Origin: Tachypleus tridentatus
Taxonomy: Eukaryota > Arthropoda > Merostomata > Xiphosura > Limulidae
Assembly: GCF_004210375.1 (NCBI RefSeq)
Contig: NC_134834.1
Coordinates: 149,701,009 to 149,765,008, forward strand
Direction: 5' to 3'
Length of the DNA: 64,000 bases
Shown: piece by piece, positions 8,105 through 62,349 of the stretch
Numbering within the stretch: position 1 is the first letter of the stretch
Layout: each line of letters opens with the position of its first letter
The notes under the pieces: generated by a model
What the model saw: only the letters and a program-made list of their open reading frames with translations
Told to the model about the DNA's origin: nothing
The model's database searches: none
Made by a program: the position numbers and the translations under genes

Positions 8105-8362
8105 CACAACCAATACCTCATAACATCTGGAATTGTACATCAGATCTACAGAACGAAAAGCTACAATGTAAATGACACTGAACGTGGTCACAAGATAGAT
8201 AATGTGGAATTAAAATAACAAAACAAGTATACCCACAACCAATACCTCATAACATCTGGAATTGTACATCAGATCTACAGAACGAAAAGCTACAATGTAA
8301 ATGACACTGAACGTGGTCACAAGATAGATAATGTGGAATTAAAATAACAAAACAAGTATACC
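8105..8362 (+). repeat. Perfect 129-bp tandem duplication
   Basis: 8105-8233 and 8234-8362 appear identical by eye, both beginning CACAACCAATACCTCATAAC. A diverged relative of the same phrase (CTGGAATTGCTCATCATGTC) lies near 7,860. The open minus-strand frame across 7,850-8,191 overlaps these repeats and is not a convincing gene. Confidence 0.85.
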
Positions 8363-33761: not shown

Positions 33762-34129
33762 ATGTTTGTAGGCAGTTTGATTTTAATGCTGTCGGTGTGT
33801 GACACTTACGTTACATGTTATCCGTTATTTAAAGGTGATAATGTTAGTTCAAACATTGACTCGTATAATAAACTTAGTGCAGAAATAAAATTATCAAAAA
33901 GTTTTGAGTCTGAAATAGATTTTAAAAACAGCCAAAGTAAGTATGTTGGAATCAGTGCTGATAAGCTTTCTCCAGAAATCGTAAAACCTCAAGATCACTT
34001 GGAAGGAGTGAGAATGGAACGAGATGGCCATCTTAATGAGAAATTTAGAAAAGAAGTGATAATTGGAAGTCAGGTGAAAGAAGAGAAAAAGATGACTGAT
34101 GAAGAAGTTTTGAAAGATGTATTTTGGAA
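33762..34129 (+). CDS. SDF4: SDF4-like exon 1: signal peptide and linker
   Basis: This exon encodes residues 1-122 and two bases of codon 123. Residues 2-12 are hydrophobic, and a Cys-Tyr-Pro at 19-21 is a plausible signal-peptidase region. The rest is charged and low in complexity, as is the poorly conserved N-terminal linker of Cab45 proteins. The end, just before GTAAGT at 34130, reads into the helix preceding the first EF-hand loop. Upstream non-coding sequence from about 33,240 is probably promoter and 5' UTR, but I see no clear TATA box. Confidence 0.85.
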
Positions 34130-35295
34130 GTAAGTTGAGAGTTTTATCGTTTCACATCTAAAAACAAAGGATGAAATCATTTCTTTCCTCGTTATAAATA
34201 TATTAAAAGAAATATTTTAAAGTAATATTTATGATTGTCCATGATATTAAGTTATTTTATTTTATATAGACTAGAGGATCAACAAGTTTTTGGCATCTGA
34301 TTTATTTGTACTATATTCTGAAGTAAGAAGGAAATAGAAGAATATATTATTATAAGCTGATTTTTTTGAAAGTACAGATAAAGTATTTTTTAAGAGGGTG
34401 ATATATGGAATGAGTTACTGTTAACAGTAATAGAAACCAACAAGTTGAGCTTAAGGGGAAAATTGACAATCTTGTGAAAGGTTAAAAAAGTAAAGGGAGG
34501 GCTTAAACTTTTAATTTTCCAAAGATTGTGTGTAAGAACAGGTTTGAAGAACCAAGTCATCTCTTCTTATCTTTAGGTTACATTATATCAATGGATTAAA
34601 TTTTTGTGACATGTTTAGAACATTGGTATCAGATCAGATATTTTCCTGGTTTTACCTTGGTTATGTTTGAGATAAACTGAATTTTGTGTAAACTTTCATA
34701 ATGCAACTTAACTGGTTTATTTTATAAAACATATTGGATAGGGTGTCTTCAATACCTGGAGCATGGCCAGGTGGTTAGGGCACTCAACTCGTAATTTGAG
34801 GGTCTTTGGTTCAAGTCCCCATCACACCAAGCATGCTCACTCTTTTAGCTGTGGGGGCATTATAAAGTGATGATTAATCCCACTATTCATTGGTAAAAGA
34901 GTAGCCCAAGAGTTAGTGGTGAGTGGTGATGACTAGTTGCCTTCCCTCTGGTCTTGCACTGCTAAATTAGTGGCAGATAGCCCTCGAGCAGCTTTGTGTG
35001 AAATTCAAAACAAACCCAACCAATATTTGAATTTTCTTATTTAATGCAAGACAATTTAAAAACTAGGTTTTTTAAACAATAAATGAAAGGTGTTGTTTTA
35101 TTTATAAATCATTAACAAATTTATAATTTTTACAGTTTTTACATCCAAACTTCAGATGTTGTTATTTGTAACATCCTGAAATCCTAATAAAAAAAATACT
35201 ATCATTTGACTGGAATAAGTAATGTCAATCCAAATATGTTTTCATGGACCAGGTGATGTTTCTGAAATTTTGAGTTGGCACTAGTATTATTACTT

Positions 35296-35327
<32 letters not shown>

Positions 35328-41300: not shown

Positions 41301-44300
41301 TGTGTGAATATTTACTTGTGTTAAGCTTTCCTTTATGGCATTAGATTCTCTTTTGGGCTGGAACATTTGTGTGAAAATTTTACTAGTGTGAATTTATCAG
41401 CAACAACTTTGCGTGTTTCCTTACAGATACAGATGGTGATGAACAGTTGTCAGAAACTGAGTTTGCAGAGATGCCTCAAGATGATGACAGTAAATTGAGT
41501 GAAGAAAATTGGAAGAAGGAGAGAATTAGGGAGTTTAAAGAGTTCATTGACACTAATCATGATGGAAAAGTAAATAGACAAGAACTTCTGGTAAGCAAAC
41601 TTAGGCAATAAAAAACTGCACTGAGAGAAACCTAGCCAACCTTCTGTTATAGGGAAGATGATTGGAGGAGTTCATGCAAGTGTATAAGCACAATCAGGGT
41701 TTGTTTGCAATGTAACCTTGAGTTCATGTAGTTTTCTAAAGACTACATTGAGTGTGTTTACATTTGGTGTCGTAATGTAGAGAGGAGTTCAGACTTGTGC
41801 ATAAACACGGCATATTTGTAATGTGAGTCAGAGTTCAGTGTATTTTTAATGTGCTTTTGTGTTTTATTTTAAAGCTATGTTCTGAGAGAACTCACATCAT
41901 TACACAGTATTAGCCATCTTCCTTGTGCATCTGCCAAAGAGACTTGTATGCGACTAGCTTTTAGACAACTCCTACCTAACTTCAAATGATTTAACATGAA
42001 TTGCACTACTGCACAATCGTGTAATCATGCAACAATGCCCACTACCAATAGGAGGGCAACACACCTCCAGTGCATTTGCACTTGTGTAAACTTCATTCTT
42101 CAACCTGGCATATGTAGTTATGTTTAATTTGTTCAGAATAACATTTTAAAAGCAACTTTCAATTTTGTTTTTCTATGGCTTTTGTTTTAAAAGCTTTAAC
42201 CTTTATCATGTGTTCTCAAAGATGGGGATTTATACTTAGTCCTAGGTGATTGAAGTAATTCATATTTAGGCTTTATTTCTCATGCAACATTTGGAGGCTT
42301 GTTAGCTATCAATGTCTTTGCAGCTATTGTTCAACATTTTGTAGATGACTTTTATTTACTGAATCTCCTACTTCTGTCCTATTAATTTTCTTCTCAGTCA
42401 GGAATAATATGTTGGACTGTGACCTTTATCTGTTTTCTTTGAATAGTACCTTTCCATTCATTAATTGACCTCAACTTTCCTTTCTCTCTCTGAATACCAT
42501 TCTCAGATATGTTCCTTTTCTTATAGTTTGCTTCATTCTTTATTAATTTTCATTTTATCATTCCATGACTTAGGTTTCTCAGGTCTTCACTTCTTGGTTG
42601 TCTTCTTGGTTGTCATTACAATTTGCAACACTCAAGTTCATGACTTGAGTCATGCTATTGTCCTGCTATTTAGGGTACTTTCTTTTTCTTTCTCAATTTC
42701 CTTTAATTCATATCTTTTCTGTTCAGTTTGTGGATTGAGCTCATTCCTTCTGTTTCACTTTCTGATTCCCTATCTTCACAATTTCATATGTTTCACTCCT
42801 GCCTTTTTGTACTACTGCTCATAATTCGACTTTTTATCCGAAACACTTCTTCATGGTTCAGGTTGGCTGTTGTAGACTTTGATTTTTTTTTTTTATTTGT
42901 TTAACTTGTTCATCATATTCTGCTCTTTCCCTCCATCCTTTGTTTGCCTGCTTTTGAGACTCAGTCAATCAAGGTCTGCATTTTACTGCAGTCCTTCCTC
43001 TTTCTTTAACACCTATTGATCATCTAACTCCATTTATTTTCCTGATTGTTTTAAGTAGAGCTCCTTTTTCCCTGGTAATTTGGACTTGTGTTATATAGCT
43101 TCTGTCCTTTTTTCCTTCCCAGATTTTTCCTTTTTCTTGACTTCTCTTTACTCTTATTCTCTGTCTGGTTCAGTCTTTTCCTCACTATTCCAGATTCTAA
43201 GCCTTCATGTTTTGATTTTTATCTTCTCTTCTTCCAGACATCTGGTTTGTCATTTTTCTCCTCAGTGGCTATTACTGAAATATGATTATGTGGATACCCA
43301 TTTCTTCCTCTGCTGTTTTTTTACTTTTTGTCCACCTTGGGCTTTTCCTTTCTCCTCTTCTGTTTTTATTTTCTCTACCCTTTGACCCTATCTATAATAT
43401 TTTTCACATGGTCTGCAGGTAACAATGGTCAATGTGTTGGGCACTTTCCTATGCATCTATTCTCTTTTTATTATCCATTTTAGGTCCATTCTTTTTTCAA
43501 TTTCTTGCTTTTCCCTTCACCTCAGGATTGGCTCCTTTTGTATTCTTTGGTACTTTGAGGCCATTTGTCTGTCATATTTATTGCACAGGGCTGGTATTCA
43601 TCTATTGGACTGTTTACTTTGTTTAGTCCATTCGTGGGTCATTCCTCTTCTCTTTTATTTCTTTAGTGATGATTACTTGGTTGGTGAGGATATATCTTTT
43701 TTGCACATCCACTCAATGTTTGATACTTTCTGGCTTTTTCTTCTCCTTTTGTTTCAAATGAGTTTCACCTTCTTTGTCTATGAAATATGGCATGTCTGGT
43801 TATTTGGCTTTTCATTTTGCTTTTTCTTCCTACATTATAGTTTATTTTGCATTTGGGACTCTGACTTCTTTGGAACCATTTCTTCCTTTGGGGTTTGCAC
43901 TCTTGTCTTTCACAGCAGATCTTGCAGACCCAAGATTTTCTTCTTAAGAACTATTGTTCTCCTTTTTGAGTTATAGTGTTATGGTGACAGGACCATGCTT
44001 CACTATTTCCTGCATTTCCTTACCATCTTTCAGTCTGGTTTCCCTTCTCTTTCTGCATGAGGCACATTTTTACAGGAAGGAAGTATTTCTGACATTTGGA
44101 TGCTGCCTGGTATCCACTCTACATTATTATGTCTGACTTCCTTGCTATATTCTTAACATGTTTCACTTCCTACCCCTACTTAGACATGTTCCATTCAGTC
44201 TTTTCTACTGTTATTTCATACCCCATCTATCCATGAGGCTCCATTCAAAGGCCTTATGCTTTCAGAATTTTTACATACACATTTGAGCCCATTTTCTCAT

Positions 44301-47300
44301 TATGTTGGTATTTTGGATGTTATATACTAGATTCTTAAGTTATTTCTCAGCCAGTATGCCTTCTGTCAACAAATGGTTGTTAACCCCTTCTCATTTCTGG
44401 TGGGGTTTAGTCTTAGTTTTACATGCTCCTCTTGAATACACTAAATGAGCCTTCCTCTTAAATGATCTTCATTGACCAGTTCTGCTTTAGTTCACTTGTC
44501 TTTTTCACCCTTCTTTCTCTCCCTAATTTTATCTCTCTGTTGCTTCAGTCTCATACATCCCATTTTCTTTGGGGGATATCTTCTCTCCATCCTCTCACAG
44601 ATACTTTACTCGTTCTGGTGTCCACCAGAATAAGTTTTATGCTCATGTGTCATTATTCTTGTCATTTTCCTCCTGCCTTTCACTGTCTTTGTATTTCAGT
44701 GTTGGTGGCAGATCTTGTGCTAATAGTCATCACCAATCCCTTTTCTTCTGACATTCATTCTGTGAACTGTATTTATGTCCATCTTACCTAACTACTCAAT
44801 GGTGGCTTGTCATTTTCTTCCTTGGCTGAGTGCCAGGTGGCCCTGTACATGACCATTTTCCTTTCCTTATACCAAAAGGTGTTTCTTCCTATGTCCTCTC
44901 CCACTCTCTTCCACCCCTCCATCCTCCTCACTCTAACCCTTGTCCTTAATAGGATTTTGCATCATCTAGAGCAGGGGTTCCCAACCGGTGGGTTGGCAGC
45001 CTTGGCAGGGGAGTCGCGTAGCCTTGTTAGAAGTAGCTTGGGATAACATTAATTTTATTTCATTAATTACATTTTCATGCTCTTACATTTTTTTGTTTCG
45101 GTGCAAAGCACCGTGTGCTACGTTAGTTCAATGTCTTAGGTGATATTATGGGTGTATGTATGCGTGCCTGTGAGTGAATGTACCTATGTCTGCAGCTATA
45201 TGTATGTGTGTACTAGTGAATAGCAAGTATGTGAGTGCACGCGCATGTACGTATGCTTGTGTGTCTGTTTAGCTGTGATTAAGTGTGTGTGTGCTCGCTG
45301 TTGACACGTGAGTCACATGTCCATTGCTGATTGGTGGATGATGAATCGTGCGACTGGCCACGCTCCCTTCCCTCCCAATACTTACCCCATCATTACTCTA
45401 CCTGCAACCCCCACAAGTAGTCAGTGTAAGATCTACAGTTGCCAAAGCATTCATTATTCAACATTTTTATTTTATTTTAACAAGGAGATAAGTAAGCAGT
45501 AGAGTTGAGTTGTGTCCATGGCTAAACGGCGCAGATACTCAGAATGCTACCTCAACATTGGCTTCACCACTGTGCTCGCCAACGACGGCATCGAGAAACC
45601 ACAGTGTGTTTCGTGCCATGCTGTCCTGAGTACAGAGTCAATGAAACCATCAAAACTCAAGCGTCATCTCGAGACGAAACATCCAGAACACGCAAAGAAG
45701 GGTTTGGATTTCTTTAAACGGCATGAACAGTGTCTTAAAAGCCAAAGAATCGATAGAAGTGGGTCGTTTCAGCAGCAGAGTGCAGACGTAGTGGAAGATT
45801 CATATGAGATTGCATTTGAAATTGCTAAACAAAAAAAGCCTCAAATGATTGGAGAAACACTTTTTAAACCCTGCATGATGAAAGCAGTAAATCTTATTCT
45901 TGGAGAAGCCAGTGCAAAGAAGATGCAGCAAGTATCCCTGTCAAATAATACTATACAGAGGTGCATTTCTAAAATGTGTATGGATGTGAAGGAACAGGTT
46001 TTGACTGAAATCAAGGGTTCCCCTTTGTTCTCCTTTCAGCTCGATGAGTCAACAGATGTAAGTTCATGTTCTCAGTTGTTTGTCTTCGTGAGATACATTA
46101 ATTCAGGTGACATCAAAGACGAATTCTTATTCTGCAGTGCACTTGAAACCACAACAAAAGCTGATGATGTCATGGAAAAAGTTTCAACTTTTTTTCAAGA
46201 CAAAGATCTTCAATGGCAAAACGTGTGTGGGGTTTGTACGGATGGGGCACCGGCTATGCTGGGATCGAAATCAGGATTCCAGTCGAGAGTGAAGAAGTTA
46301 GCACCTCAAGCAAAGGGCATCCACTGCATGATTCACCAATATGCTCTCACCAGTAAGACTCTCCCTGCCTCTCTGCAGGAAGTGCTTGAATCTGTAATCA
46401 AAATTGTAAATTATGTGAAGACTCAAGCACTCAACACTCACCTATTCAAAGAACTATGCAAAGACATGAATGCTGACCACGAAGTCCTTCTCTTCTACAC
46501 AGCAGTACGTTGGTTGTCGAAAGGAGACGTTATTAATCGTGTCTTTGAAATGAAAGATGAAATAAAACTATTCCTGGAGACTCAAGAAAGGAAAGATCTT
46601 GTAGCTCACTTTGAAGATGAAGCATGGAATAAAAGGGTTGCATACCAAGCTGACATTTTTGACCAGCTGAACAAGCTCAATTTGAAGCTTCAAGGAAGGG
46701 AAACACATGTTCTCCTTTTTCAAGATAGTCTTCGGGCTTTGTTTCCAAACTGCAGAATTTGCGTCGGAAAACCAATCTTGGAAACATTGCTATGTTTGAA
46801 AAACTTTGTGGAGTGACGAATGAGTCTCAGATCCAACTGGATCAGTTCCTCAAGGATGAGATCACCGAACATATTTAGTCTCTAGAAAAGGAAGTTGAGC
46901 GTTACTTCTCTGAGCTATCACAGGAACAGGAGGCCCTGGTAAGGAACCCATTTTGTACTGAACTTGATGTATCCAGCATCCCAGATGATATCCAAGATGA
47001 ATTTCTGGATCTAAGGAACGACTCTTCAGCTCGTGATCTCTTCAAGGTGAAATCCGTGACTCAGCTCTGGTGCGCTATGTATCAGTCATACTCCAAAGTC
47101 AGCATGATAGCTTTACGTGTCCTTGTTTCATTTGCTTCTACCTACTTGTGTGAGGCAGGATTTTCCACTCTTGTCAATATAAAAACAAAGAATAGGAACA
47201 GATTGGATGTTGGAGATGACATGAGACTGGCTCTAACAAATGCTCGGCCATGAATTTCAAAGCTTGCTGCTGAAATGCAACATCAGGCATCTCACAAGCT

Positions 47301-50300
47301 GGGTTGGATAGCTGTTCAAACTTATGTTAATATTATTTTAAGAAATATATGTTCTTTTTGTGAATTCAGGTTGGACCAATGTGATTTAATTTGCTAATAA
47401 ATAATTACAGAATTTTTAAATATATTTTTTTAGATGTTTCTTTCCCTCTCCTTTACAGAAAATAAACGAAAAATTAAGCTGCTGATATTAAGCCCTAAGT
47501 AGGGTGTCACATGGGTTTCAAACTTTTAGGTGAGGGGTCGCGAGTGCCAAAAGGTTGGAAACCCCTGATCTAGAGTATGACCCATTTGTCCTATTTATTT
47601 CCTGCCTTCTTTTTATCACCTTTTTCTGTAATTTTGTTTCATTCTCATTCAGAATTACCAATTTTCAGATGCGTATTATACAGATGGTTCTCATTTCCTT
47701 ATTCTTCTTACCTTTATGTTCCCCTTCAAGACTGTCTCACTGTTCCTTGAACTTAATTCACCCAGGTGGTTTACAGTACTCTCCTATCTTTTTTCTTTCA
47801 TTCATCAATTGGGCCTGTATCTTGTTGCACTGTTCATTATACATTTTCAAGGACCTCTCTTGCAGGTTTCCCATCTTTATCCATATCCTGGGAGCCATAC
47901 ATTTTTACCAGGGATTTTGTTCCTTCTATCCTTACTACATAGACCCAGACTTCTTTTATAAAGACTGGTATAAACAGTGTCATTAGTAAGACATGTGTGT
48001 ATACATGTCATTTATTATAGTCAAGTTGCTTCTATTATAATAACTGGTATAAACAGTGTTGTTAGTAATACAGTTGTTTACATGTTGTCATTTATTGTAA
48101 TCAAGTTAGTTGTATTAGGATGACTTGTATAAACAGTGTCATTAGTAATACAGTTGAATGCATTTTATTTATTATAGTCAGGTTACTTCTATTAGGATGA
48201 CTGGTATAAACAGTGTCGTCAGTAATACAATTGTATACATGTTGTCATTCATTATAGTGAACTTCTATTATAATAACTGGTATAAACAGTTAGTAATACA
48301 GTTGTATACATGTTGCAATTTATTATATTCAAGTTGGTTCTATTACAATGACTGGTATAAACAGTTAGTAATACAGTTGTATACATGTTGCAATTTATTA
48401 TATTCAAGTTGGTTCTATTCCAATGACTGGTATAAACAGTGTCATTAGTAATACAGTTGTATACATGTCATTTATTATAGTCAAGTTACTTCTATTATAA
48501 TGACTGGTATAAACAGTGTCATTAGTAATACAGTTGTATACATGTCATTTACTATAGTCAAGTTCATTCTATTATAATGACTGGTATAAACAGTGTTGTT
48601 ACTAATACAGTTGTTTACATGTTGTCATTTATTGTAGTCAAGTTAGTTGTATTAGGATGACTGGTATAAAGAGTGTCATTAGTAATACAGTTCAATGCAT
48701 TTTATTTATTATAGTCAGGTTAGTTCTATTAGGATGACTGGTATAAACAGTGTCATAAGTAATACAATTATATATGTTGTCATTTATTATAGTGAAGTTC
48801 TATTATAATGTCTGGTATAAACAGTTAGTAATACAGTTGTATACATGTTGTCATTTATTATATTCAAGTTAGTTCTATTACAATGACTGGTATAAAAAGT
48901 GTCATTAGTAATACAGCTGTTTACATGTCATTTATTATATTCAAGTTACTTCTATTATAATGACTGGTGTAAACAGTGTCATTACTAATACAGTTGTTTA
49001 CATGTTGCCATTTATTATAGTCAAATTAGTTCTATTACAATGACTGGTATTAAGAGTGTTTTTTATGATACAATTGTATACATATTGTCATTTATTATAG
49101 TCATGTCTATTAGAATGACTAGTATAAACAGTGTCATTAGTAATACAGTTGTATACATGTCATTATAGTCAAGTTAGTTCTATCAGAAAGACTGGTGTAA
49201 ACAGTGTCATTAGTAATACAGTGGTATACATGTCATTTATTATAGTCGTTACTTCTTTTATAATCACTGGTATAAACAGTTAGTAATACAGTTGTTTACA
49301 TGTTGTCATTTATTGTAGTCATGTTAGTTGTATTAGGATGACTGGTATAAACAGTGTCATTAGTAATACAGTTATATGCATTTTATTTATTATAGTTAGA
49401 TTAGTTCTATTAGGATGACTGGTATAAACAGTGTCATTAGTAATACAATTGTATACAGTTGTGATTTATTATAGTCAAGGTAGGTTTATTAGAATGACTG
49501 GTATAAACAGTGTTGTTTGGAGTAGAGTTATATACCTATTGTAATTTATTATAGTCAAGTTACTTCAATTATAATGATTGGTATAAACAGTATCGTTAGT
49601 AATACAGTTGTTAAATGTTGTCATTTGTTATATTCAAGTTAGTTCTATTACAATGACTGGTACAAACAGTGTCATTAGTAATATAGTTGTATACATGTCA
49701 TTTATTATAGTCAAGCTGCTTCTATTATAATGACTGGTATAAACAGTGTTGTCAGTAATATAGTTGTATGCATTTTATTTATTATAGTCAAGTTAGTTTT
49801 ATTAGGATGACTGGTATAAACAGTGATATTAGTAATATAATTGTATACAGACGTGATTTATTATAGTGAAGTTCTATTATAATGACTGGTATAAACAGTT
49901 AGTAATACAGTTCTATACATGTCATTTATTATGGTCAAGTTGCTTCGATTATAATGACTGGTATAAAGAGTTAGTAATACAGTTGTTTACATGTTGTCGT
50001 TTATTGTAGTCAAGTTAGTTCTATTAGGATGACTGGTATAAACAGTGTCATTAGTAATAAAATTGTATACATGTCATTTTTTATAGTCAAGTTGCTTCTA
50101 TTATAATAACTGGTATAAACAGTGTTATTAGTAATACAGTTGTTTACATGTTGTCATTTATTACAGTCAAGTTGCTTCTATTATAATGACTGGTATAAAC
50201 AGTGTTGTTAGTCATACAGTTGTTTACATGTCATTTATTGTACTCAAGTTAGTTGTATTAGGATGACTGGTATAAACAGTGTCATTAGTAATACAGTTGT

Positions 50301-53300
50301 ATGCATTTTATTTATTATAGTCAGGTTAGTTTTATCAGGATGACTGGTATAAACAGCGTCATTAGTAATACAATTGTATCCATGTTGTCATTTATTATAG
50401 TGAAGTTCTATTATAATGACTGGTATAAACAGTTAGTAATACAGTTGTATACATGTTGCCATTTATTACATTCAAGTTAGTTCTATTACAATGATTGGTA
50501 AAAACAGTGTGATTAGTAATACAGTTGTTTACATGTCATTTATTGTAGTCACATTAGTTCTATTAGGATGACTGGTGTGAACAGTGTGATTAGTAATACA
50601 GTTGTATACATGTCATTTTTTATAGTCAAGTTGCTTCTATTATAATAACTGGTATAAACAGTGTTATTGGTAATACAGTTGTTTACATGTTGTCATTTAT
50701 TGAAGTCAAGTTAGTTGTATTAGGATGACTGGTATAAACAGTGTCATTAGTAATACAATTATATACATGTTGTCATTTATTATAGTGAAGTTCTATTATA
50801 ATGACTGGTATAAACAGTTAGTAATACAGTTGTATACATGTTGTCATTTATGATATTCAAGTTAGTTCTGTTACAATGACTGGTATAAAAGTGTCATTAG
50901 TAATACAGTTGTTTACATGTTGCCATTTATTATAGTCAAATTAGTTCTATTACAATGACTGGTATTAACAGTGTTGTTTGTAATACAGTTCTATACATAT
51001 TGTCATTTATTATAGTCATGTTTATTAGAATGACTGGTGTAAACAGTGTCATAAGTAATACAGTGGTATACATGATATTTATTATAGTCATGTTACTTGT
51101 TTTATAATGACTGATATAAACAGTGTGATTAGTAATACAGTTGTATACATGTCATTTATTTTAGTCAAGTTGCTTCTTTTATAATGACTGGTATAAACAG
51201 TGTTGTTAGTAATACAGTTGTTTACATGTTGTCATTTATTGTAGTCAAGTTAGTTGTATTAGGATGACTTGTATAAACAGTGTCATTAGTAATACAGTTG
51301 AATGCATTTTATTTATTATAGTCAGGTTACTTCTATTAGGATGACTGGTATAAACAGTGTCGTCAGTAATACAATTGTATACATGTTGTCATTCATTATA
51401 GTGAACTTCTATTATAATAACTGGTATAAACAGTTAGTAATACAGTTGTATACATGTTGCAATTTATTATATTCAAGTTGGTTCTATTACAATGACTGGT
51501 ATAAACAGTTAGTAATACAGTTGTATACATGTTGCAATTTATTATATTCAAGTTGGTTCTATTACAATGACTGGTATAAACAGTGTCATTAGTAATACAG
51601 TTGTATACATGTCATTTACTATAGTCAAGTTCATTCTATTATAATGACTGGTATAAACAGTGTTGTTACTAATACAGTTGTTTACATGTTGTCATTTATT
51701 GTAGTCAAGTTAGTTGTATTAGGATGACTGGTATAAAGAGTGTCATTAGTAATACAGTTCAATGCATTTTATTTATTATAGTCAGGTTAGTTCTATTAGG
51801 ATGACTGGTATAAACAGTGTCATAAGTAATACAATTATATATGTTGTCATTTATTATAGTGAAGTTCTATTATAATGTCTGGTATAAACAGTTAGTAATA
51901 CAGTTGTATACATGTTGTCATTTATTATATTCAAGTTAGTTCTATTACAATGACTGGTATAAAAAGTGTCATTAGTAATACAGCTGTTTACATGTCATTT
52001 ATTATATTCAAGTTACTTCTATTATAATGACTGGTGTAAACAGTGTCATTACTAATACAGTTGTTTACATGTTGCCATTTATTATAGTCAAATTAGTTCT
52101 ATTACAATGACTGGTATTAAGAGTGTTTTTTATGATACAATTGTATACATATTGTCATTTATTATAGTCATGTCTATTAGAATGACTAGTATAAACAGTG
52201 TCATTAGTAATACAGTTGTATACATGTCATTATAGTCAAGTTAGTTCTATCAGAAAGACTGGTGTAAACAGTGTCATTAGTAATACAGTGGAATACATGT
52301 CATTTATTATAGTCGTTACTTCTTTTATAATCACTGGTATAAACAGTTAGTAATACAGTTGTTTACATGTTGTCATTTATTGTAGTCACGTTAGTTGTAT
52401 TAGGATGACTGGTATAAACAGTGTCATTAGTAATACAGTTATATGCATTTTATTTATTATAGTTAGATTAGTTCTATTAGGATGACTGGTATAAACAGTG
52501 TCATTAGTAATACAATTGTATACAGTTGTGATTTATTATAGTCAAGGTAGGTTTATTAGAATGACTGGTATAAACAGTGTTGTTTGGAGTAGAGTTATAT
52601 ACCTATTGTAATTTATTATAGTCAAGTTACTTCAATTATAATGATTGGTATAAACAGTATCGTTAGTAATACAGTTGTTAAATGTTGTCATTTGTTATAT
52701 TCAAGTTAGTTCTATTACAATGACTGGTACAAACAGTGTCATTAGTAATATAGTTGTATACATGTCATTTATTATAGTCAAGCTGCTTCTATTATAATCA
52801 CTGGTATAAACAGTGTTGTCAGTAATATAGTTGTATGCATTTTATTTATTATAGTCAAGTTAGTTTTATTAGGATGACTGGTATAAACAGTGATATTAGT
52901 AATATAATTGTATACAGACGTGATTTATTATAGTGAAGTTCTATTATAATGACTGGTATAAACAGTTAGTAATACAGTTCTATACATGTCATTTATTATG
53001 GTCAAGTTGCTTGATTATAATGACTGGTATAAAGAGTTAGTAATACAGTTGTTTACATGTTGTCGTTTATTGTAGTCAAGTTAGTTCTATTAGGATGACT
53101 GGTATAAACAGTGTCATTAGTAATAAAATTGTATACATGTCATTTTTTATAGTCAAGTTGCTTCTATTATAATAACTGGTATAAACAGTGTCATTAGTAA
53201 TACAGTTGTATGCATTTTATTTATTATAGTCAGGTTAGTTTTATCAGGATGACTGGTATAAACAGCGTCATTAGTAATACAATTGTATCCATGTTGTCAT

Positions 53301-56300
53301 TTATTATAGTGAAGTTCTATTATAATGACTGGTATAAACAGTTAGTAATACAGTTGTATACATGTTGCCATTTATTACATTCAAGTTAGTTCTATTACAA
53401 TGATTGGTAAAACAGTGTGATTAGTAATACAGTTGTTTACATGTCATTTATTGTAGTCACATTAGTTCTATTAGGATGACTGGTGTGAACAGTGTGATTA
53501 GTAATACAGTTGTATACATGTCATTTTTTATAGTCAAGTTGCTTCTATTATAATAACTGGTATAAACAGTGTTATTGGTAATACAGTTGTTTACATGTTG
53601 TCATTTATTGAAGTCAAGTTAGTTGTATTAGGATGACTGGTATAAACAGTGTCATTAGTAATACAATTATATACATGTTGTCATTTATTATAGTGAAGTT
53701 CTATTATAATGACTGGTATAAACAGTTAGTAATACAGTTGTATACATGTTGTCATTTATGATATTCAAGTTAGTTCTGTTACAATGACTGGTATAAAAGT
53801 GTCATTAGTAATACAGTTGTTTACATGTTGCCATTTATTATAGTCAAATTAGTTCTATTACAATGACTGGTATTAACAGTGTTGTTTGTAATACAGTTCT
53901 ATACATATTGTCATTTATTATAGTCATGTTTATTAGAATGACTGGTGTAAACAGTGTCATAAGTAATACAGTGGTATACATGATATTTATTATAGTCATG
54001 TTACTTGTTTTATAATGACTGGTATAAACAGTGTGATTAGTAATACAGTTGTATACATGTCATTTATTTTAGTCAAGTTGCTTCTTTTATAATGACTGGT
54101 ATAAACAGTGTTGTTAGTAATACAGTTGTTTACATGTTGTCATTTATTGTAGTCAAGTTAGTTGTATTAGGATGACTGGTATAAACAGTGTCATTAGTAA
54201 TACAATTGTATACAGTTGTGATTTATTATAGTGAGGTTCTATTATAATGACTGGTATAAACAGTGTCATTAGTAATACAGTTGTTTACATGTTGCCATTT
54301 ATTACAGTCAAGGTAGGTCTATTAGAATGACTGGTATAAACAGTGTTATTTGTAATACAGTTGTATACATATTGTCATTTATTATAGTCAAGTTACTTCA
54401 ATTATAATGACTGGTATAAACAGTTGCTAATACAGTTGTTTACATGTTGTCATTTATTGTAGTCAAGTTAGTTCTATTACAATGACTGGTATAGACAGTG
54501 TCAATAGTAATACAGTTCTATACATATTGTCATTTATTATAGTCATGTTTATCAGAATGACTGGTATACATGTCATTTATTATAGTGAAGTTCTGTTATA
54601 ATGGCTGGTATAAACAGTGTCATTAGTAATACAGTTGTTTACATGTCATTTATTATAGTCAAGTTACTTGTATTATAATTACTGGTATAAATAGTGTCAT
54701 TAGTAATACAGTTGTATCCATTTTATTTATTATAGTCAGGTTAGGTCTATTAGGATGACGGGTATAAACAGTGTCATTAGTAATACAATTGTATACATGT
54801 TGTCATTTATTATAGTAATGGTAGGTCTATTAGAATGACTGGTATAAACAGTGTTGTTTGTTGTAGAGTTGTATACGTATTGTCATTTATTATAGTCAAG
54901 TTGCTTCTATTATAATGACTGGTATAAACTGTCGTTCGTAATACAGTTGTTAAATGTTGTCATTTATTATAGTCAAGTTCTATTATAATGACTGGTATAA
55001 ACTGTCGTTAGTAATACAGTTGTTAAATGTTGTCATTTATTATAGTTAAATTAGGTCGATTACAATGACTGGTATAAACAGTTTTGTTTGTAATACAGTT
55101 ATATATATGTTGTCATTAATTACAGTGAAGTAAGTTCTATAGGCACTGGTATAAACAGTGTCGTTAGTGATACAGTTGTTAAAATGTTGTCATTTATTAT
55201 AGTCAGGTTAGTTCTATTAGAATGACTGGTATAAACAGTGTCATTAGTAATACAGTTGTTTACATGTTGCCATTTATTATTGCCATAGTAGGTTTATTAG
55301 AATGGCTGGTATAAACAGTGTTGTTGTATAAGAGTTGTTAAATGTTGTCATTTATTATAGTCAAGTTTTATTATAATGACTGGTATAAACAGTGTTGTTA
55401 GTAATACAGTTGTTTACATGTTGTCATTTATTGTAGTCAAGCTAGTTCTATTACAATGAATGGTATAGACAGTGTCATTAGTAATACAGTTGTATACATG
55501 TCATTTCTTTCAGTCAAGTTGCTTCTATTATAATGACTGGTATAAAGAGTGTTGTTAATCATACAGTTGTTTACATCTTGCCATTTATTATGGTCAATGT
55601 AGGTTTATTAGAATGACTGGTATAAACAGTGTCGTTAGTAATACTGTTGTTAAATGTTGTCATTTATTATATTCAAGTTAGTTCTATTACAATGACTGGT
55701 ATAAACAGTGTGATTACTAATACAGTTGTATACATGTCATTTATTATAGTCAAGTTGTTTCTGTTATAATTACTGGTATAAACAGTGTTGTTAGTAATAC
55801 AGTTGTTTACATGTTGTCATTTATTGTAGTCAAGTTAGTTGTATTGGGATGACTGGTATAAACAGTGTCATTAGTAATACATTTGTATGCATTTTATTTA
55901 TTATAGTCAGGTTAGTTGTATTGGGATGACTGGTATAAACAGTGTCATTAGTAATACATTTGTATGCATTTTATTTATTATAGTCAGGTTAGTTGTATTA
56001 GGATGACTGGTATAAACAGTGTTGTTAGTAATACAGTTGTTTACATGTTGTCATTTATTGTAGTCAAGCTAGTTCTATTACAATGAATGGTATAGACAGT
56101 GTCATTAGTAATACAGTTGTATACATGTCATTTCTTTCAGTTTAGTTGCTTCTATTATAATGACTGGTATAAAGAGTGTTGTTAATCATACAGTTGTTTA
56201 CATCTTGCCATTTATTATGGTCAATGTAGGTTTATTAGAATGACTGGTATAAACAGTGTCGTTAGTAATACTGTTGTTAAATGTTGTCATTTATTATATT

Positions 56301-59300
56301 CAAGTTAGTTCTATTACAATGACTGGTATAAACAGTGTGATTACTAATACAGTTGTATACATGTCATTTATTATAGTCAAGTTGTTTCTGTTATAATTAC
56401 TGGTATAAACAGTGTTGTTAGTAATACAGTTGTTTACATGTTGTCATTTATTGTAGTCAAGTTAGTTGTATTGGGATGACTGGTATAAACAGTGTCATTA
56501 GTAATACATTTGTATGCATTTTATTTATTATAGTCAGGTTAGTTGTATTAGGATGACTGGTATAAACAGTGTTGTTAGTAATACAGTTGTTTACATGTTG
56601 TCATTTATTATATTCAAGTTAGTTCTATTACAATGTCTGGTACAAACAATTTAATTACTAATACAGTTGTTTACATGTTGTCATTTATTGTAGTCATGTT
56701 AGTTGTATTAGGAACACTGGTATAAACAGTGTCATTAGTAATACAATTATATACATGTTGTCATTTATTATACTGAAGTTCTATTATAATGACTGGTATA
56801 AACAATTAGTAATACAGTTGTACACATATTGTCATTTATTATATTCAAGTTAGTTCTGTTACAATGACTGGTATAAAAAGTGTCATTAGGAATATAGTTG
56901 TTTACATGTTGCCATTTGTTGTAGTGAAATTAGTTTTATTACAATGACTGGTATTAACAGTGTTGTTTGTAATACAGTTGTATACATATTGTCATTTATT
57001 ATAGTCATGTTTATTAGAATGACTGGTGTAAACAGTGTCATTAGTAATACAGTGGTATACATGTCATTTATTATAGTCAAGTTGCTTCTTTTATAATGAC
57101 TGGTATAAACAGTTAGCAATACAGTTGTTCACATGTTGTCATTTATTGTAGTCAAATTAGTTGTATTAGGATGACTGGTATAAACAGTGTCATTAGTAAT
57201 ACAATTGTATACATGTTGTCATTTATTATAGTCAAGTTGCTTCTATTATAATGACTGGTATAAACTGTCGTTCGTAATACAGTTGTTAAATGTCATTTAT
57301 TATAGTCAAGTTCTATTATAATGACTGGTATAAACTGTCGTTAGTAATACAGTTGTTAAATGTTGTCATTTATTATAGTCAAATTAGGTCGATTACAATG
57401 ACTGGTATAAACAGTTTTGTTTGTAATACAGTTATATATATGTTGTCATTAATTACAGTGAAGTAAGTTCTATAGGCACTGGTATAAACAGTGTCGTTAG
57501 TAATACAGTTGTTAAAATGTTGCCATTTATTATAGTCAGGTTAGTTCTATTAGAATGACTGGTATAAACAGTGTCATTAGTAATACAGTTGTTTACATGT
57601 TGCCATTTATTATTGTCATAGTAGGTTTATTAGAATGGCTGGTATAAACAGTGTTGTTGTATAAGAGTTGTTAAATGTTGTCATTTATTATAGTCAAATT
57701 TTATTATAATGACTGGTATAAACAGTGTTGTTAGTAATACAGTTGTTTACATGTTGTCATTTATTGTAGTCATGTTAGTTGTATTGGGATGACTGGAATA
57801 AACAGTGTCATTAATAATACATTTGTATGCATTTTATTTATTATAGTCAGGTTTGTTGTATTAGGATGACTGGTATAAAAAGTGTCATTAGTAATACAGC
57901 TGTTTACATGTCATTTATTATATTCAGGTTACTTCTATTATAATGATTGGTGTAAACAGTGTCATTAGTAATACAGTTGTTTACATGTTGCCATTTCTTA
58001 TAGTCAAATTAGTTCTATTACAATGAGTGGTATTAACAGTGTTGTTTGTAATACAGTTCTATACATATTGTCATTTATTATAGTCATGTTTATTAGAATG
58101 ACTGGTATACATGTCATTTATTATAGTGAAGTTCTGTTATAATGGCTGGTATAAACAGTGTCATTAGTAATACAGTTGTTTACATGTCATTTATTATAGT
58201 CAAGTTACTTGTATTATAATTACTGGTATAAATAGTGTCATTAGTAATACAGTTGTATCCATTTTATTTATTATAGTCAGGTTAGGTCTATTAGGATGAC
58301 GGGTATAAACAGTGTCATTAGTAATACAATTGTATACATGTTGTCATTTATTATAGTAATGGTAGGTCTATTAGAATGACTGGTATAAACAGTGTTGTTT
58401 GTTGTAGAGTTGTATACATATTGTCATTTATTATAGTCAAGTTGCTTCTATTATAATGACTGGTATTAACTGTCGTTCGTAATACAGTTGTTAAATGTTG
58501 TCATTTATTATAGTCAAGTTCTATTATAATGACTGGTATAAACTGTCGTTAGTAATACAGTTGTTAAATGTTGTCATTTATTATAGTCAAATTAGGTCGA
58601 TTACAATGACTGGTATAAACAGTTTTGTTTGTAATACAGTTATATATATGTTGTCATTAATTACAGTGAAGTAAGTTCTATAGGCACTGGTATAAACAGT
58701 GTCATTAGTAATACAGTTGTTAAAATGTTGTCATTTATTATAGTCAGGTTAGTTCTATTAGAATGACTGGTATAAACAGTGTCATTAGTAATACAGTTGT
58801 TTACATGTTGCCATTTATTATTGTCATAGTAGGTTTATTAGAATGGCTGGTATAAACAGTGTTGTTGTATAAGAGTTGTTAAATGTTGTCATTTATTATA
58901 GTCAAATTTTATTATAATGACTGGTATAAACAGTGTTGTTAGTAATACAGTTGTTTACATGTTGTCATTTATTGTAGTCATGTTAGTTGTATTGGGATGA
59001 CTGGAATAAACAGTGTCATTAATAATACATTTGTATGCATTTTATTTATTATAGTCAGGTTTGTTGTATTAGGATGACTGGTATAAAAAGTGTCATTAGT
59101 AATACAGCTGTTTACATGTCATTTATTATATTCAGGTTACTTCTATTATAATGATTGGTGTAAACAGTGTCATTAGTAATACAGTTGTTTACATGTTGCC
59201 ATTTCTTATAGTCAAATTAGTTCTATTACAATGAGTGGTATTAACAGTGTTGTTTGTAATACAGTTCTATACGTATTGTCATTTATTATAGTCATGTTTA

Positions 59301-62300
59301 TTAGAATGACTGGTATACATGTCATTTATTATAGTGAAGTTCTGTTATAATGGCTGGTATAAACAGTGTCATTAGTAATACAGTTGTTTACATGTCATTT
59401 ATTATAGTCAAGTTACTTGTATTATAATTACTGGTATAAATAGTGTCATTAGTAATACAGTTGTATCTATTTTATTTATTATAGTCAGGTTAGGTCTATT
59501 AGGATGACGGGTATAAACAGTGTCATTAGTAATACAATTGTATACATGTTGTCATTTATTATAGTAATGGTAGGTCTATTAGAATGACTGGTATAAACAG
59601 TGTTGTTTGTTGTAGAGTTGTATACATATTGTCATTTATTATAGTCAAGTTGCTTCTATTATAATGACTGGTATAAACTGTCGTTCGTAATACAGTTGTT
59701 AAATGTTGTCATTTATTATAGTCAAGTTCTATTATAATGACTGGTATAAACTGTCGTTAGTAATACAGTTGTTAAATGTTGTCATTTATTATAGTCAAAT
59801 TAGGTCGATTACAATGACTGGTATAAACAGTTTTGTTTGTAATACAGTTATATATATGTTGTCATTAATTACAGTGAAGTCAGTTCTATAGGCACTGGTA
59901 TAAACAGTGTCGTTAGTAATACAGTTGTTAAAATGTTGTCATTTATTATAGTCAGGTTAGTTCTATTAGAATGACTGGTATAAACAGTGTCATTAGTAAT
60001 ACAGTTGTTTACATGTTGCCATTTATTATTGTCATAGTAGGTTTATTAGAATGGCTGGTATAAACAGTGTTGTTGTATAAGAGTTGTTAAATGTTGTCAT
60101 TTATTATAGTCAAGTTTTATTATAATGACTGGTATAAACAGTGTTGTTAGTAATACAGTTGTTTACATGTTGTCATTTATTGTAGTCAAGTTGTATTGGG
60201 ATGACTGGTATAAACAGTGTCATTAATAATACATTTGTATGCATTTTATTTATTATAGTCAGGTTAGTTGTATTAGGATGACTGGTATAAACAGTGTTGT
60301 TAGTAATACAGCTGTTTACATGTCATTTATTATATTCAGGTTACTTCTATTATAATGATTGGTGTAAACAGTGTCATTAGTAACACAGTTGTTTACATGT
60401 TGCCATTTATTATAGTCAAGTTACTTCTTTTATAATGACTGGTATAAACAGTGTGATTAGTAATACAGTTGCATACATGTCATTTATTATAGTGAAGTTG
60501 CTTCTTTTATAATGACTGGTATAAACAGTTAGTAATACAGTTGTTTATATGTTGTCATTTATTGTAGTCAAATTAGTTGTATTAGGATGACTGGTATAAA
60601 CAGTGTCATTAGTAATACAGTTGTTCTCATGTTGTCATTTATTATAGTCAGGTTAGTTCTATTAGGATGACTGGTATAAACAGTGTCATTAGTAATACAA
60701 TTGTATACAGTTGTGATTTATTATAGTGAAGTTCCATTATAATGACTGGTATAAACAGTGTCATTAGTAATACAGTTGTTTACATGTTGTCATTTATTGT
60801 AGTCAAGCTAGTTCTATTACAATGAATGGTATAGACAGTGTCATTAGTAATACAGTTGTATACATGTCATTTCTTTCAGTCAAGTTGCTTTTATTATAAT
60901 GACTGGTATAAAGAGTGTTGTTAATCATACAGTTGTTTACATGTTGTCATTTATTGTACTCAAGTTAGTTGTATTAGGATGACTGGTATAAACAGTGTCA
61001 TTAGTAATACAAATGTACACATGTTGTCATTTATTATAGTGAAGTTCTATTATAATGACTGGTGTAAACAGTGTTGTTAGTAATACAGTTGTTTACATGT
61101 CATTTTTCATGGTCAAGTTGCTTCAATTGTAATGACTGGTATAAATAGTTAGTAATACAGTTGTTTACATGTTGTTATTTACTGTAGTCATGTTAGTTCT
61201 ATTATAATGACTGGTATAAACAGTGTTGTTAGTAATACAGTTGTTTACATGTCATTTATTGTAGTTAAGTTAGTTTTATTGGGATGACTGGTATAAACAG
61301 TGTCATTAATAATACATTTGTATGCATTTTATTTATTATAGTCAGGTTAGTTGTATGAGGATGACTGGTATAAACAGTGTCATTAGTAATACAGTTGTTT
61401 ACATGTTGCCATTTATTATAGTCAAGGTAGGTCTATTAGAATGACTGGTATAAACAGTGTTGTTTGTAATAGAGTTGTATACACATTGTCATATATTATA
61501 GTCAAGTTACTTCAATTATAATGATTGGTATAAACAGTGTGATTAGTAATACAGTTGCATACATGTCATTTATTATAGCGAAGTTGCTTCTTTTATAATG
61601 ACTGGTATAAACAGTTAGTAATACAGTTGTTTACATGTTGTCATTTATTGTAGTCAAGTCAGTTGTATTAGGATGACTGGTATAAACAGTGTCATTGGTA
61701 ATAGAATTGTATACATGTTGTCATTTATTATAATGAAGTTCTATTATTATGACTGGTATAAACATTTAGTAGTACAGTTGTATACATGTTGTCATTTATT
61801 GTATTCAAGTTAGTTTATTACAATAACCGGTATAAACAGTGTTATTAGTAATACAGTCGTTTACATGTCATTTATTATAGTCATGTTACTTCAATTATAA
61901 TGACTGGTATAAACTGTCATTAGTAATACAGTTGTTAAATGTTGTCATTTATTATAGTCAAATTCTATTATAATGACTGGTATAAACAGTGTCGTTAGTA
62001 ATACTATTGTATACATGTTGTCATTTATTATAGTCATGTCTATTAGAATGACTGGTATAAACAGTGTCATTAGTAATACAGTTGTATTTATTTTAGTATT
62101 TGGTACACAGTGCCCTCTTGCTAAGTAGATGTGTGTTAAGTCAGCTCCTTATGAAAGCCATTTTTTTTATAGTTGTACAATGACCCAGAAAATCCTGTTC
62201 ATTCAAAGCGAGAAGCAGAAGAACTTATATCCAAGGCTGATACCAACAAAGATAACTGTCTCTCTCTTCAGGAAGTTTTAGCACAGAAAAATATTTTCCT

Positions 62301-62349
62301 TGGGAGCAAAATGGTAGACACTGCTCGCAGTTTTCACGATGAATTCTAA
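33762..62349 (+). CDS. SDF4: Cab45/SDF4-like EF-hand calcium-binding protein, whole six-exon gene
   Basis: Six exons join in frame: 33762-34129, 38682-38818, 39900-40007, 40587-40742, 41427-41590 and 62173-62349. They total 1,110 nt, or 369 residues plus TAA. Every junction has GT (mostly GTAAGT) and AG. Visible parts are a signal peptide (about 1-20), an acidic/lysine-rich linker, six EF-hand positions (loops at 125-136, 164-175, a degenerate one near 221-232, 257-268, 298-309 and 334-345) and a C-terminal HDEF. Sequons lie at N27, N187 and N193. From family knowledge, Cab45 is a soluble Golgi-lumen protein of about 360 residues ending in HEEF. It binds Ca2+ supplied by the SPCA1 pump and helps sort secretory cargo at the trans-Golgi. 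Length, EF-hand spacing and the HDEF tail fit SDF4 better than reticulocalbins, which end in HDEL. The ATG at 33762 is preferred over an upstream in-frame TTG because it has A at -3 and opens directly into the signal peptide. Confidence 0.9.
34759..35017 (+). mobile_element. tRNA-derived SINE, family 1 (in SDF4 intron 1)
   Basis: The tRNA-like head comes first (GGCCAGGTGGTTAGGGCACT, an anticodon loop containing CTCGTAA, and GGTTCAAGTCCCC). The body follows (GTAAAAGAGTAGCCCAAGAG, GACTAGTTGCCTTCCCTCTG) and the copy ends TTTGTGTGAAATTCAAAAC. It is nearly full length. The head looks Thr(CGT)-like. Confidence 0.85.
35296..35321 (+). repeat. (TA)n microsatellite
   Basis: A run of about 13 TA dinucleotides followed by an A-rich tract with AATAA phrases, in SDF4 intron 1. 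Confidence 0.95.
37513..38245 (+). mobile_element. Decayed non-LTR retrotransposon (CR1/L2-like) 3' end
   Basis: Conceptual translation in several frames recalls the C-terminal part of LINE ORF2: SINEEKHYGVLVHWSL near 37,645, LVRPHLKYCVQSW near 37,805, SLEKRR-like sequence near 37,950, and a WN.LPS-type end near 38,150. Frameshifts and stops are frequent, so it is an old 5'-truncated copy lying sense in SDF4 intron 1. Confidence 0.75.
38682..38818 (+). CDS. SDF4: SDF4-like exon 2: EF-hand 1 and start of EF-hand 2
   Basis: The exon follows a CTTAG acceptor and ends at GGTAAGT. It encodes residues 124-168. EF-hand 1 (125-136) has Asp, Asn and Asp at loop positions 1, 3 and 5, Thr at 9 and Glu at 12. 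The second loop begins at D164 and is split by the intron after N168, giving a phase-1 junction. Confidence 0.88.
39171..39735 (+). repeat. Minisatellite in SDF4 intron 2 (about 50-60 bp units)
   Basis: About ten imperfect units share TTTTTTGTTTGTCT, ATTGTAG, ACTGTGAACTG and GTAGGAGTGTC in that order. The last units drift to TTTATTATAG with ATTATGAACTGGTAGG. Each unit sets a pyrimidine tract plus TAG 11 nt before CTGGTAGG, like a miniature acceptor-donor pair. It ends about 165 bp before exon 3. Confidence 0.85.
39900..40007 (+). CDS. SDF4: SDF4-like exon 3: end of EF-hand 2
   Basis: The acceptor is CGTAG at 39895-39899 and the donor is GTAAGT at 40008. The exon completes the second EF-hand with G169 and the VSWEEY segment; Glu175 is loop position 12. 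This segment closely resembles the VSWDEY of vertebrate Cab45 as I remember it. Two N-glycosylation sequons follow, N187-K-T and N193-H-S. Confidence 0.88.
40587..40742 (+). CDS. SDF4: SDF4-like exon 4: degenerate EF-hand 3
   Basis: The exon starts after TTTGTAG and ends before GTAAGT at 40743. It encodes residues 206-256. The EF-hand 3 position (near 221-232) lacks the regular acidic ladder and probably binds Ca2+ weakly or not at all; this position is also degenerate in the vertebrate protein as I recall it. The LTFRHPEHS segment after it is a family signature. Confidence 0.88.
41010..41400 (+). repeat. Minisatellite in SDF4 intron 4
   Basis: CTTGTGGGCTGGAAC-like phrases recur at about 41,013, 41,088, 41,138, 41,216, 41,283 and 41,350, alternating with GATTGTACTACAGTGTGAA and CTTTATGGCATTAGATTCTC phrases. 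Units are about 50-78 bp. The repeat ends just before exon 5. Confidence 0.8.
41427..41590 (+). CDS. SDF4: SDF4-like exon 5: EF-hands 4 and 5
   Basis: The exon follows TTACAG and ends at CTG before GTAAGC, a phase-0 junction. It encodes residues 258-311. EF-hand 4 (257-268) has Asp at 1, 3 and 5 and Glu at 12. EF-hand 5 (298-309) has Asp, Asn and Asp, then Gly at 6 and Glu at 12. Both look competent to bind Ca2+. The intron after it is 20.6 kb and holds nested transposons and the large tandem array. Confidence 0.9.
42100..44963 (+). mobile_element. Decayed DIRS-like retroelement, left part
   Basis: The plus strand is strongly pyrimidine-biased and has long open but low-complexity frames. Around 43,450-43,625 pieces in two frames resemble the DIRS-type reverse transcriptase palm: a degenerate HIPIHP-like segment, then QFLAFPF, LAPFVF and TLRPFV, then a corrupted catalytic-loop region. 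Near 43,868 a GTSLT-like segment (GTLTSLEP) follows, and near 44,370 NKWLLTPSHF resembles the RT/RNase H junction. Frames shift and stops intrude, so it is not functional. The left boundary is soft. The assignment rests on motif memory. Confidence 0.45.
44964..47575 (+). mobile_element. hAT (Buster-like) DNA transposon with target-site duplications
   Basis: The element proper is 44972-47567, about 2.6 kb. Its ends are inverted: CAGGGGTTCCCAACC on the left, and the complement of the right end is CAGGGGTTTCCAACC, 14 of 15 matching. Both sides carry a perfect 8-bp duplication, ATCTAGAG (44964-44971 and 47568-47575), with TA at its centre as expected for Buster-type hATs. It is nested in an older DIRS-like relic inside the last intron of the SDF4-like gene. 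A degenerate TG-rich tract lies at 45,150-45,300. Confidence 0.9.
45518..47253 (+). pseudogene. hAT transposase (BED finger, ZBED5-like), frameshifted
   Basis: The frame opens at the ATG at 45518 (an upstream GTG is not needed) and runs to 46816. A BED zinc finger has C30, C33, H50 and H55. The RNase H-like catalytic core shows D176 in QLDESTD, D242 in TDGAPAMLG and the C270-x2-H273 motif. Near 46,730-46,735 the homology moves to another frame, which continues to 47,253. That frame has one in-frame TAG at 46876-46878 and ends with the hAT dimerisation region (STYLCEAGFSTLVNIKTK). Two lesions therefore break a transposase of about 575 residues, so it is most likely inactive. Relatives are often annotated in animal genomes as ZBED5-like or SCAND3-like host genes. 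Here the inverted ends and target duplications show a transposon copy. Confidence 0.88.
47576..47948 (+). mobile_element. Decayed DIRS-like retroelement, right part beyond the hAT insertion
   Basis: The same pyrimidine-biased composition resumes immediately after the hAT target duplication and continues to the first tandem-array unit. This fits a single older element split by the hAT. No recombinase domain could be recognised. The open frames here are products of low purine content, not membrane proteins. Confidence 0.4.
48000..54185 (+). repeat. About 3.1 kb segmental duplication inside the array (two copies)
   Basis: The order of variant units from about 48,000-51,150 recurs at about 51,150-54,185. 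The offset starts at 3,144 bp (48,158 against 51,302) and falls to 3,067 after a one-unit deletion (48,561 against 51,628). It is near 2,908 at the end, after a further loss of about two units in copy 2. Substitutions between copies are rare, so the duplication is much younger than the array. Confidence 0.85.
55400..56650 (+). repeat. About 627-bp tandem duplication inside the array
   Basis: The distinctive stretch beginning GCTAGTTCTA recurs at 55,441 and 56,068, 627 bp apart, with the following variant units in the same order. A third, partial relative of this block starts at 60,807. Confidence 0.75.
57200..60200 (+). repeat. About 1,208-bp higher-order repeat, tandem copies
   Basis: The unusual unit with AGGCACTGGT occurs at 57,474, 58,682 and 59,890, spaced exactly 1,208 bp. 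The unit with GACGGGTATAAAC occurs at 58,298 and 59,506, also 1,208 bp apart. An older related block at 54,757-55,141 keeps the same 384-bp spacing between these two markers. Confidence 0.85.
62173..62349 (+). CDS. SDF4: SDF4-like exon 6: EF-hand 6 and HDEF tail
   Basis: The acceptor is a T-run followed by ATAG at 62169-62172. The exon encodes residues 312-369. EF-hand 6 (334-345) has Asp, Asn and Asp at 1, 3 and 5, with Asn in place of Gly at 6 and Glu at 12. The protein ends GSKMVDTARSFHDEF, matching the Cab45 pattern of GSKLVDYAR followed by a four-residue tail ending in EF. TAA is at 62347-62349. The exon begins only about 75 bp after the last unit of the intronic tandem array. Confidence 0.92.
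   Translation: MYNDPENPVHSKREAEELISKADTNKDNCLSLQEVLAQKNIFLGSKMVDTARSFHDEF

Follow-up and report, generated by a model that had tools for sequence, protein, structure and literature searches.

In the horseshoe crab Tachypleus tridentatus, an SDF4/Cab45-like gene carries in its last intron a tandem array of 14,145 bp, composed of about 185 units that follow an 80-bp consensus. The array occupies positions 47951-62095, on the + strand, of a stretch of 64,000 nucleotides (C10, positions 149,701,009-149,765,008; hereafter the window, to which all feature coordinates refer). The assembly searched comprises 2,167,478,450 bases in 205 contigs. We consider it highly probable (about 0.85) that the array is a neutral or nearly neutral, locus-specific minisatellite that is spliced out with intron 5. 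The minisatellite would have arisen within this last intron and would have grown by replication slippage and unequal exchange, first by single units and later by blocks of about 8-40 units. It would be transcribed within the pre-mRNA and removed with intron 5 without consequence, its presence being neutral or nearly so.

The array, its host gene and its history

Tandem arrays were called with Tandem Repeats Finder (TRF), and individual units were resolved by wrap-around alignment to a circular 80-bp consensus. The program returned rows at 47951-54568 (period 77), 54571-62087 (period 80) and 47951-62095 (period 157), the last of which spans the whole array and is without any N. The alignment resolved 185 units, 182 of them of 63-80 bp and 3 of 48 bp, with 77 and 80 bp as the commonest lengths. 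Mean identity to the consensus was 0.916 (14,144 aligned positions, gaps not counted), and it varied little from one end of the array to the other (0.905 to 0.934 over groups of 15 units). With up to 3 mismatches allowed, a 32-base piece of the unit matched 118 times in the window, always on the + strand, and 0 times in 100 shuffles. The units thus lie head to tail, in the range of about 10-100 bp and at a single locus, as expected of a minisatellite. A previous reading of the same DNA (the sequence-only reading) had placed a minisatellite, oriented in the sense direction, within the last intron of an SDF4-like gene, and TRF, the alignment and the gene model all bear this out. It had claimed about 180 units of 68-83 bp. 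The large copy number stood, the exact figure being nearer 185 in the alignment; as to length, we found units of 77 and 80 bp with shorter variants, and nothing above 80 bp with an alignment consensus that is itself 80 bp long. TRF, which it had proposed as the check on unit and copy number, confirmed the array at 47951-62095. The observation was both right and precise.

The host gene was located by tblastn with a human SDF4 sequence. This query found all exons in order on the + strand, with E values of 6.7e-11 to 4.5e-05 for five of them and of 0.13 for the short exon 3, which is weak when taken alone. With the start and the stop kept constant, GT/AG boundaries up to 4 bases away were tried for every internal exon end, and exactly one combination gave a complete frame, of 369 residues in six exons. 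These are exon 1 (coding part, 33762-34129), exon 2 (38682-38818), exon 3 (39900-40007), exon 4 (40587-40742), exon 5 (41427-41590) and exon 6 (62173-62349), the last of which encodes a C-terminal HDEF followed by the stop codon. Pfam identified EF-hand pairs in the protein (2e-24), and the homology to SDF4 extends across exons 5 and 6. Multiple EF-hands, SDF4 homology over the exons and the C-terminal HDEF mark the predicted product as an SDF4/Cab45-like member of the CREC family, and the gene appears to be an SDF4/Cab45-like gene of the secretory pathway, found in single copy in the assembly. When the protein was searched against the genome, seven matches resulted, corresponding to the six exons described here and one more distant match of 25% identity on contig C8; this search found no second SDF4 locus with which a paralogous intron could be compared.

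Intron 5 (41591-62172) measures 20,582 bp. The array takes up 69% of it (14,145/20,582 bp), ends 77 bp before exon 6 and has 12.7 times the length of the coding sequence (1,110 bp, stop included). Four claims of the sequence-only reading were thereby upheld, namely that the six exons join in frame, that the array fills two thirds of the last intron, that it ends about 75 bp before exon 6 and that it is many times longer than the coding sequence. Introns have been reported to average 3,792 bp in T. tridentatus (PMC7011531) and 4.3 kb in Carcinoscorpius (PMC7210998). Intron 5 owes its length mainly to the array and to an inserted transposon, which is described below.

Self-comparison of the array pointed to two phases of growth. 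At a lag of one unit, ungapped self-identity was 0.48. Much larger lags gave long and nearly identical runs, of 1,483 bp with 13 mismatches (lag 3067), 1,703 bp with 17 mismatches (lag 1208), 604 bp with 12 mismatches (lag 627) and 959 bp with 16 mismatches (lag 3541); the remaining runs at larger lags were mostly 94-98% identical. The duplicated blocks measure about 3.1, 1.2 and 0.6 kb, the longest runs being 98-99% identical. The first half of the array (47996-54217) holds two copies of a block of about 3.1 kb (lags 3144, 3067, 2909 and 2908; 96-99% identity), and the shifts of 77 and about 158 bases between these lags look as if one and two units had been gained or lost. The second half (54495-60432) consists of overlapping block copies (lags 627, 1208, 1204, 2333, 2416, 2412, 3541 and 4749; 95-99% identity). 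Because the block copies differ by about 1% in the longest runs while identity at a one-unit lag is only 0.48, the blocks are best explained as later events and not as exact duplicates made during assembly. This pattern indicates that the array grew by units, which diverged, and was then enlarged through block duplications, as slippage and unequal exchange would lead one to expect. Since the block duplications are recent, length polymorphism between individuals is likely.

Restriction of the unit and frequency of long arrays

In the whole assembly, the 32-base piece of the unit (up to 3 mismatches) had 118 matches, the same number as in the window, and those listed were all in the array. No match was found genome-wide on the reverse strand, and a reversed-pattern control also gave 0 matches. 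An exact 21-base piece had 35 matches in the genome, every one in the array. With up to 3 mismatches, the unit was accordingly confined to a single locus in a search that scores substitutions only and that more diverged relatives may escape. These results suggest that the 80-bp unit is private to its locus, and they disfavour an origin from a dispersed satellite or a mobile element, which we had considered.

To judge how unusual such an array is, we had a background sample of 14 stretches of 10 kb (8 from contig C10 and 2 each from C7, C8 and C11), which was not random; two of those from C10, L052 and L053, were picked within about 100 kb of the window. Three of the 14 stretches (exact 95% interval roughly 5-51%) were wholly tandem array: L045 (C10, 10.0 Mb; 35-bp unit), L050 (C11, 20.0 Mb; 82-bp unit, 99% matches) and L052 (C10, 149.6 Mb; 38-bp unit). 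L049 and L051 contained arrays of about 0.5 and 1 kb, and the other nine stretches 0-864 bp of tandem repeat. Because of these three stretches, the 14-kb array looks ordinary in this genome, and the rarity that the sequence-only reading had implied found no support.

Several of the sampled units also looked restricted when searched in the genome. The unit of L052 matched 173 times forward and 0 times in reverse, all of the matches listed being at C10:149.58-149.60 Mb. That of L045 matched 654 times forward and 0 times in reverse, with all of the matches listed at C10:9.476-9.487 Mb, about 0.5 Mb away from the sampled stretch. The unit of L051 had 25 forward and 0 reverse matches, in two C8 locations separated by about 0.45 Mb, and that of L049 had 3 forward and 0 reverse matches, at the sampled place only. 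L045 and L052 thus resemble the array in intron 5 in that their units match in one orientation only and, among the matches listed, on the sample's own contig, and all three large arrays resemble it in filling stretches of many kilobases with short units. In contrast, the unit of L050 occurred in both orientations (438 forward, 107 reverse), with at least two arrays of opposite orientation on C11 among the matches listed. None of 200 shuffles reached the similarity between the units of L045 and L052, a result given by no other of the 36 pairs, and these two units may share an origin.

In this genome, long arrays that keep to a single place or chromosome look common, and the intron 5 array looks like one instance of this apparent habit. 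Published repeat contents are 33-40% (PMC7815833, PMC6390705); in another account, RepeatModeler gave 34.83% repeats, 13.26% being transposable elements, and RepeatMasker gave 0.77% simple repeats (PMC7011531). The available text of these three accounts describes no long minisatellites, and no title in the literature listings dealt with them. The unclassified share of the repeats could in part consist of such long arrays.

Taken alone, the locus is an ordinary intronic minisatellite, perhaps usable as a hypervariable marker, and the apparent wealth of long, place-restricted arrays across the genome is the more interesting lead. In its widest form, this lead would be that the genome gives a large share, perhaps a fifth, to separately born minisatellite arrays confined to one place or one chromosome, and that those within genes are filtered for an orientation that transcription and splicing can pass, so that changes in length act on the splicing of the terminal exon. 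We hold this to be doubtful. The filter on orientation is suggested by the sense strand of the array, which is almost free of AATAAA, while the other strand has about one per unit. Were such arrays to form much of the genome, they would stay unclassified wherever a repeat library is derived from dispersed families, and the assemblies available for the same species would differ in size, some of them collapsing the arrays. Assemblies of T. tridentatus are listed at 1.72, 1.94 and 2.17 Gb (table of PMC7815833, species columns assigned from header order) and at 2.06 Gb (PMC7011531), and tandem arrays may account for some of these differences.

RNA-processing motifs and alternative explanations

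Some points weigh against a neutral minisatellite that is simply spliced out and that is one of many in its genome. The copy number of the array could be wrong in the assembly, and the background sample was small and came for the most part (8 of 14 stretches) from the contig on which the window lies. The other points concern splice-site and poly(A) motifs, which were compared with dinucleotide-preserving shuffles (20 for the donor-consensus score, 40 for the remaining counts). On the sense strand of the array, acceptor-like sites with 10 or more pyrimidines of 15 numbered 115 (shuffle mean 51.3, maximum 62), CAGGTTAGT donor-like sites 14 (shuffle mean 0.4) and AATAAA 4 (shuffle mean 6.7), as compared with 201 AATAAA on the antisense strand (shuffle mean 30.7). 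These departures from the shuffles could reflect a part of the array in RNA processing.

The array might indeed be a processing element, the length of which tunes the use of the exon 6 acceptor and of intronic terminal exons through the acceptor-like TTTATTATAG offered by each unit and the donor-like CAG/GTTAGT offered by some. In addition to the figures just given, 18 sense sites agreed with at least 8 of 9 positions of the donor consensus (shuffle mean 9.4), and the five real acceptors of the gene, with 8 to 11 pyrimidines of 15 (some recounted by eye), are in the same range as the acceptor-like sites of the array. However, the latter amount to about one per unit, and their excess depends on the threshold: with at least 9 pyrimidines, 158 were found for a shuffle mean of 118.5, but there was no sense excess with at least 8 (184 vs 198.7) or at least 11 (8 vs 14.7). 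The antisense strand was likewise above its shuffles with at least 8, 9 and 10 pyrimidines (174 vs 82.8, 151 vs 40.9 and 26 vs 13.1), and had 0 sites with at least 11 (shuffle mean 2.9). Strong acceptors in the array, which we had considered as a feature in their own right, were not retained, the array being poor in them by the 11-pyrimidine rule and rich by the laxer 10-pyrimidine rule. The GTT of the donor-like motif is a poor match to the donor GTRAGT, and YAGGTRAGT was found 0 times on the sense strand of the array (shuffle mean 1.1). Furthermore, because every unit descends from one, each of these counts derives from copies of a single unit and is effectively one observation, which shuffling cannot test. 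For a similar reason, we set aside the asymmetry in poly(A) hexamers as a signal: it is real in the sequence, but it comes from one motif of one unit. ATTAAA was found 0 times on the sense strand (shuffle mean 10.2) and once on the antisense strand (20.7). Such hexamers are tolerated in the introns of this gene, since intron 1 (4,552 bp) carries 12 AATAAA and 11 ATTAAA. Taken together, a role of the array in splicing is possible but unsupported, and we regard the processing element as unlikely. The consequences for splicing, transcription time or chromatin that the sequence-only reading had suggested thus found no support.

TATAAA was also frequent on the sense strand of the array (151 vs a shuffle mean of 16.1). 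Two pieces of the array showed no unusual single-strand folding (z -1.25 for 557 nt as RNA, z -1.31 for 238 nt as DNA). In strand composition, the array (GC skew +0.25 to +0.32, AT skew -0.12 to -0.16) shares its signs with the gene at 34 to 42 kb, the GC skew of the intervening 42-48 kb being negative. This fits transcription of the array in the germline, without proving it.

Two further explanations were weighed. The assembler might have created or collapsed copies or blocks, or the array might belong elsewhere, and, within a 14-kb array, blocks that reach 1.7 kb and are 99% identical are hard for older long reads. An artefact of this kind seems very unlikely, since the array is without N, its block copies show differences of about 1% and of whole units, its unit had no second location in the pattern searches of the genome and both of its flanks are part of one gene; the copy number may still be off. 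The array might also have arrived with a mobile element, such as another transposon carrying tandem repeats or the hAT-type DNA transposon that lies next to it in intron 5 (44972-47567, + strand). The ends of this transposon are CAGGGGTT, and it is flanked by a perfect target duplication of 8 bp, ATCTAGAG, at 44964-44971 and 47568-47575; it stops 383 bp before the array. The array, which begins at 47951, is nevertheless not inside the hAT ends, these and the target duplication lying outside it, and its unit was not found elsewhere in the genome, unlike a mobile repeat. We therefore regard such a carrier as extremely improbable, and retain the locus-specific minisatellite spliced out with intron 5 as the best explanation.

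Tandem repeats within introns are known from other systems. The variable-number tandem repeat (VNTR) of human WDR7 has a 69-bp unit and resembles the horseshoe-crab array in being located in the last intron; it is human-specific and polymorphic, and shorter than the horseshoe-crab array. It has been named as possibly coding for microRNA (review PMC8239992), whereas the two folded pieces of our array were without folding excess. The VNTR of human ABCA7 is likewise a minisatellite within an intron; its alleles measure about 300 bases at the short end and more than 10,000 at the long end (PMC6857246), and its longer alleles are reported to favour a cryptic splice site (review PMC8239992). Its unit is different (25 bp and GC-rich), and it is reported to vary in length and to affect splicing, whereas the present array is known from the sequence of one assembly. 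Large intronic minisatellites are thus already known, and this array is a further example. In Drosophila, the gigantic introns of the Y-linked genes kl-3 and kl-5 contain tandem satellite DNA that is transcribed (PMC6508621). The likeness lies in the tandem repeats inside introns; those introns contain megabases of simple satellite and belong to a spermatocyte programme, whereas here 14 kb of an 80-bp unit are found on a contig of 194.6 Mb.

Other repeats in and around the gene

The transposase frame of the hAT element is in two pieces. The second matched Pfam Dimer_Tnp_hAT (7.2e-06), and the first gave no more than a zinc-finger match that fell short of the curated Pfam cut-off. The insertion splits a pyrimidine-rich stretch of about 3 kb (42400-44970 and 47568-47950; 60-74% C+T in 200-base steps), in which TRF found one 25-bp tandem row only.

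Outside the array, tandem repeats with a period of at least 10 make up 6.0% of positions 33751-47950 as compared with 1.0% of the upstream 33.5 kb. Three shorter ones were called by TRF in introns of the gene, all given on the + strand. A second minisatellite, with 13 copies of a 44-bp unit, is located in intron 2 (39158-39712), its sole place in the genome search, and contains 8 acceptor-like sites with at least 11 pyrimidines. A shared origin of this unit and the 80-bp unit was rejected as not significant, because 10 of 200 shuffles reached the local score of this pair, one of 36 among 9 units. Three copies of a 33/36-bp repeat directly follow exon 2 (38854-38956), and intron 4 contains 2.6 copies of a 67-bp repeat (41214-41389). 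These three repeats, the hAT element and the nested block duplications of the array are additions to the sequence-only reading. Outside the gene, a 129-bp sequence is present in two copies of 99% identity at 8100-8363.

In the assembly, exons of the coagulin family gave 19 matches, and none was found in any of 14 control genomes, which supports the horseshoe crab implied by the sequence-only reading. A 45-residue piece of one coagulin-family locus was identical (45/45) to the end of the Tachypleus tridentatus coagulogen of PDB 1aoc.

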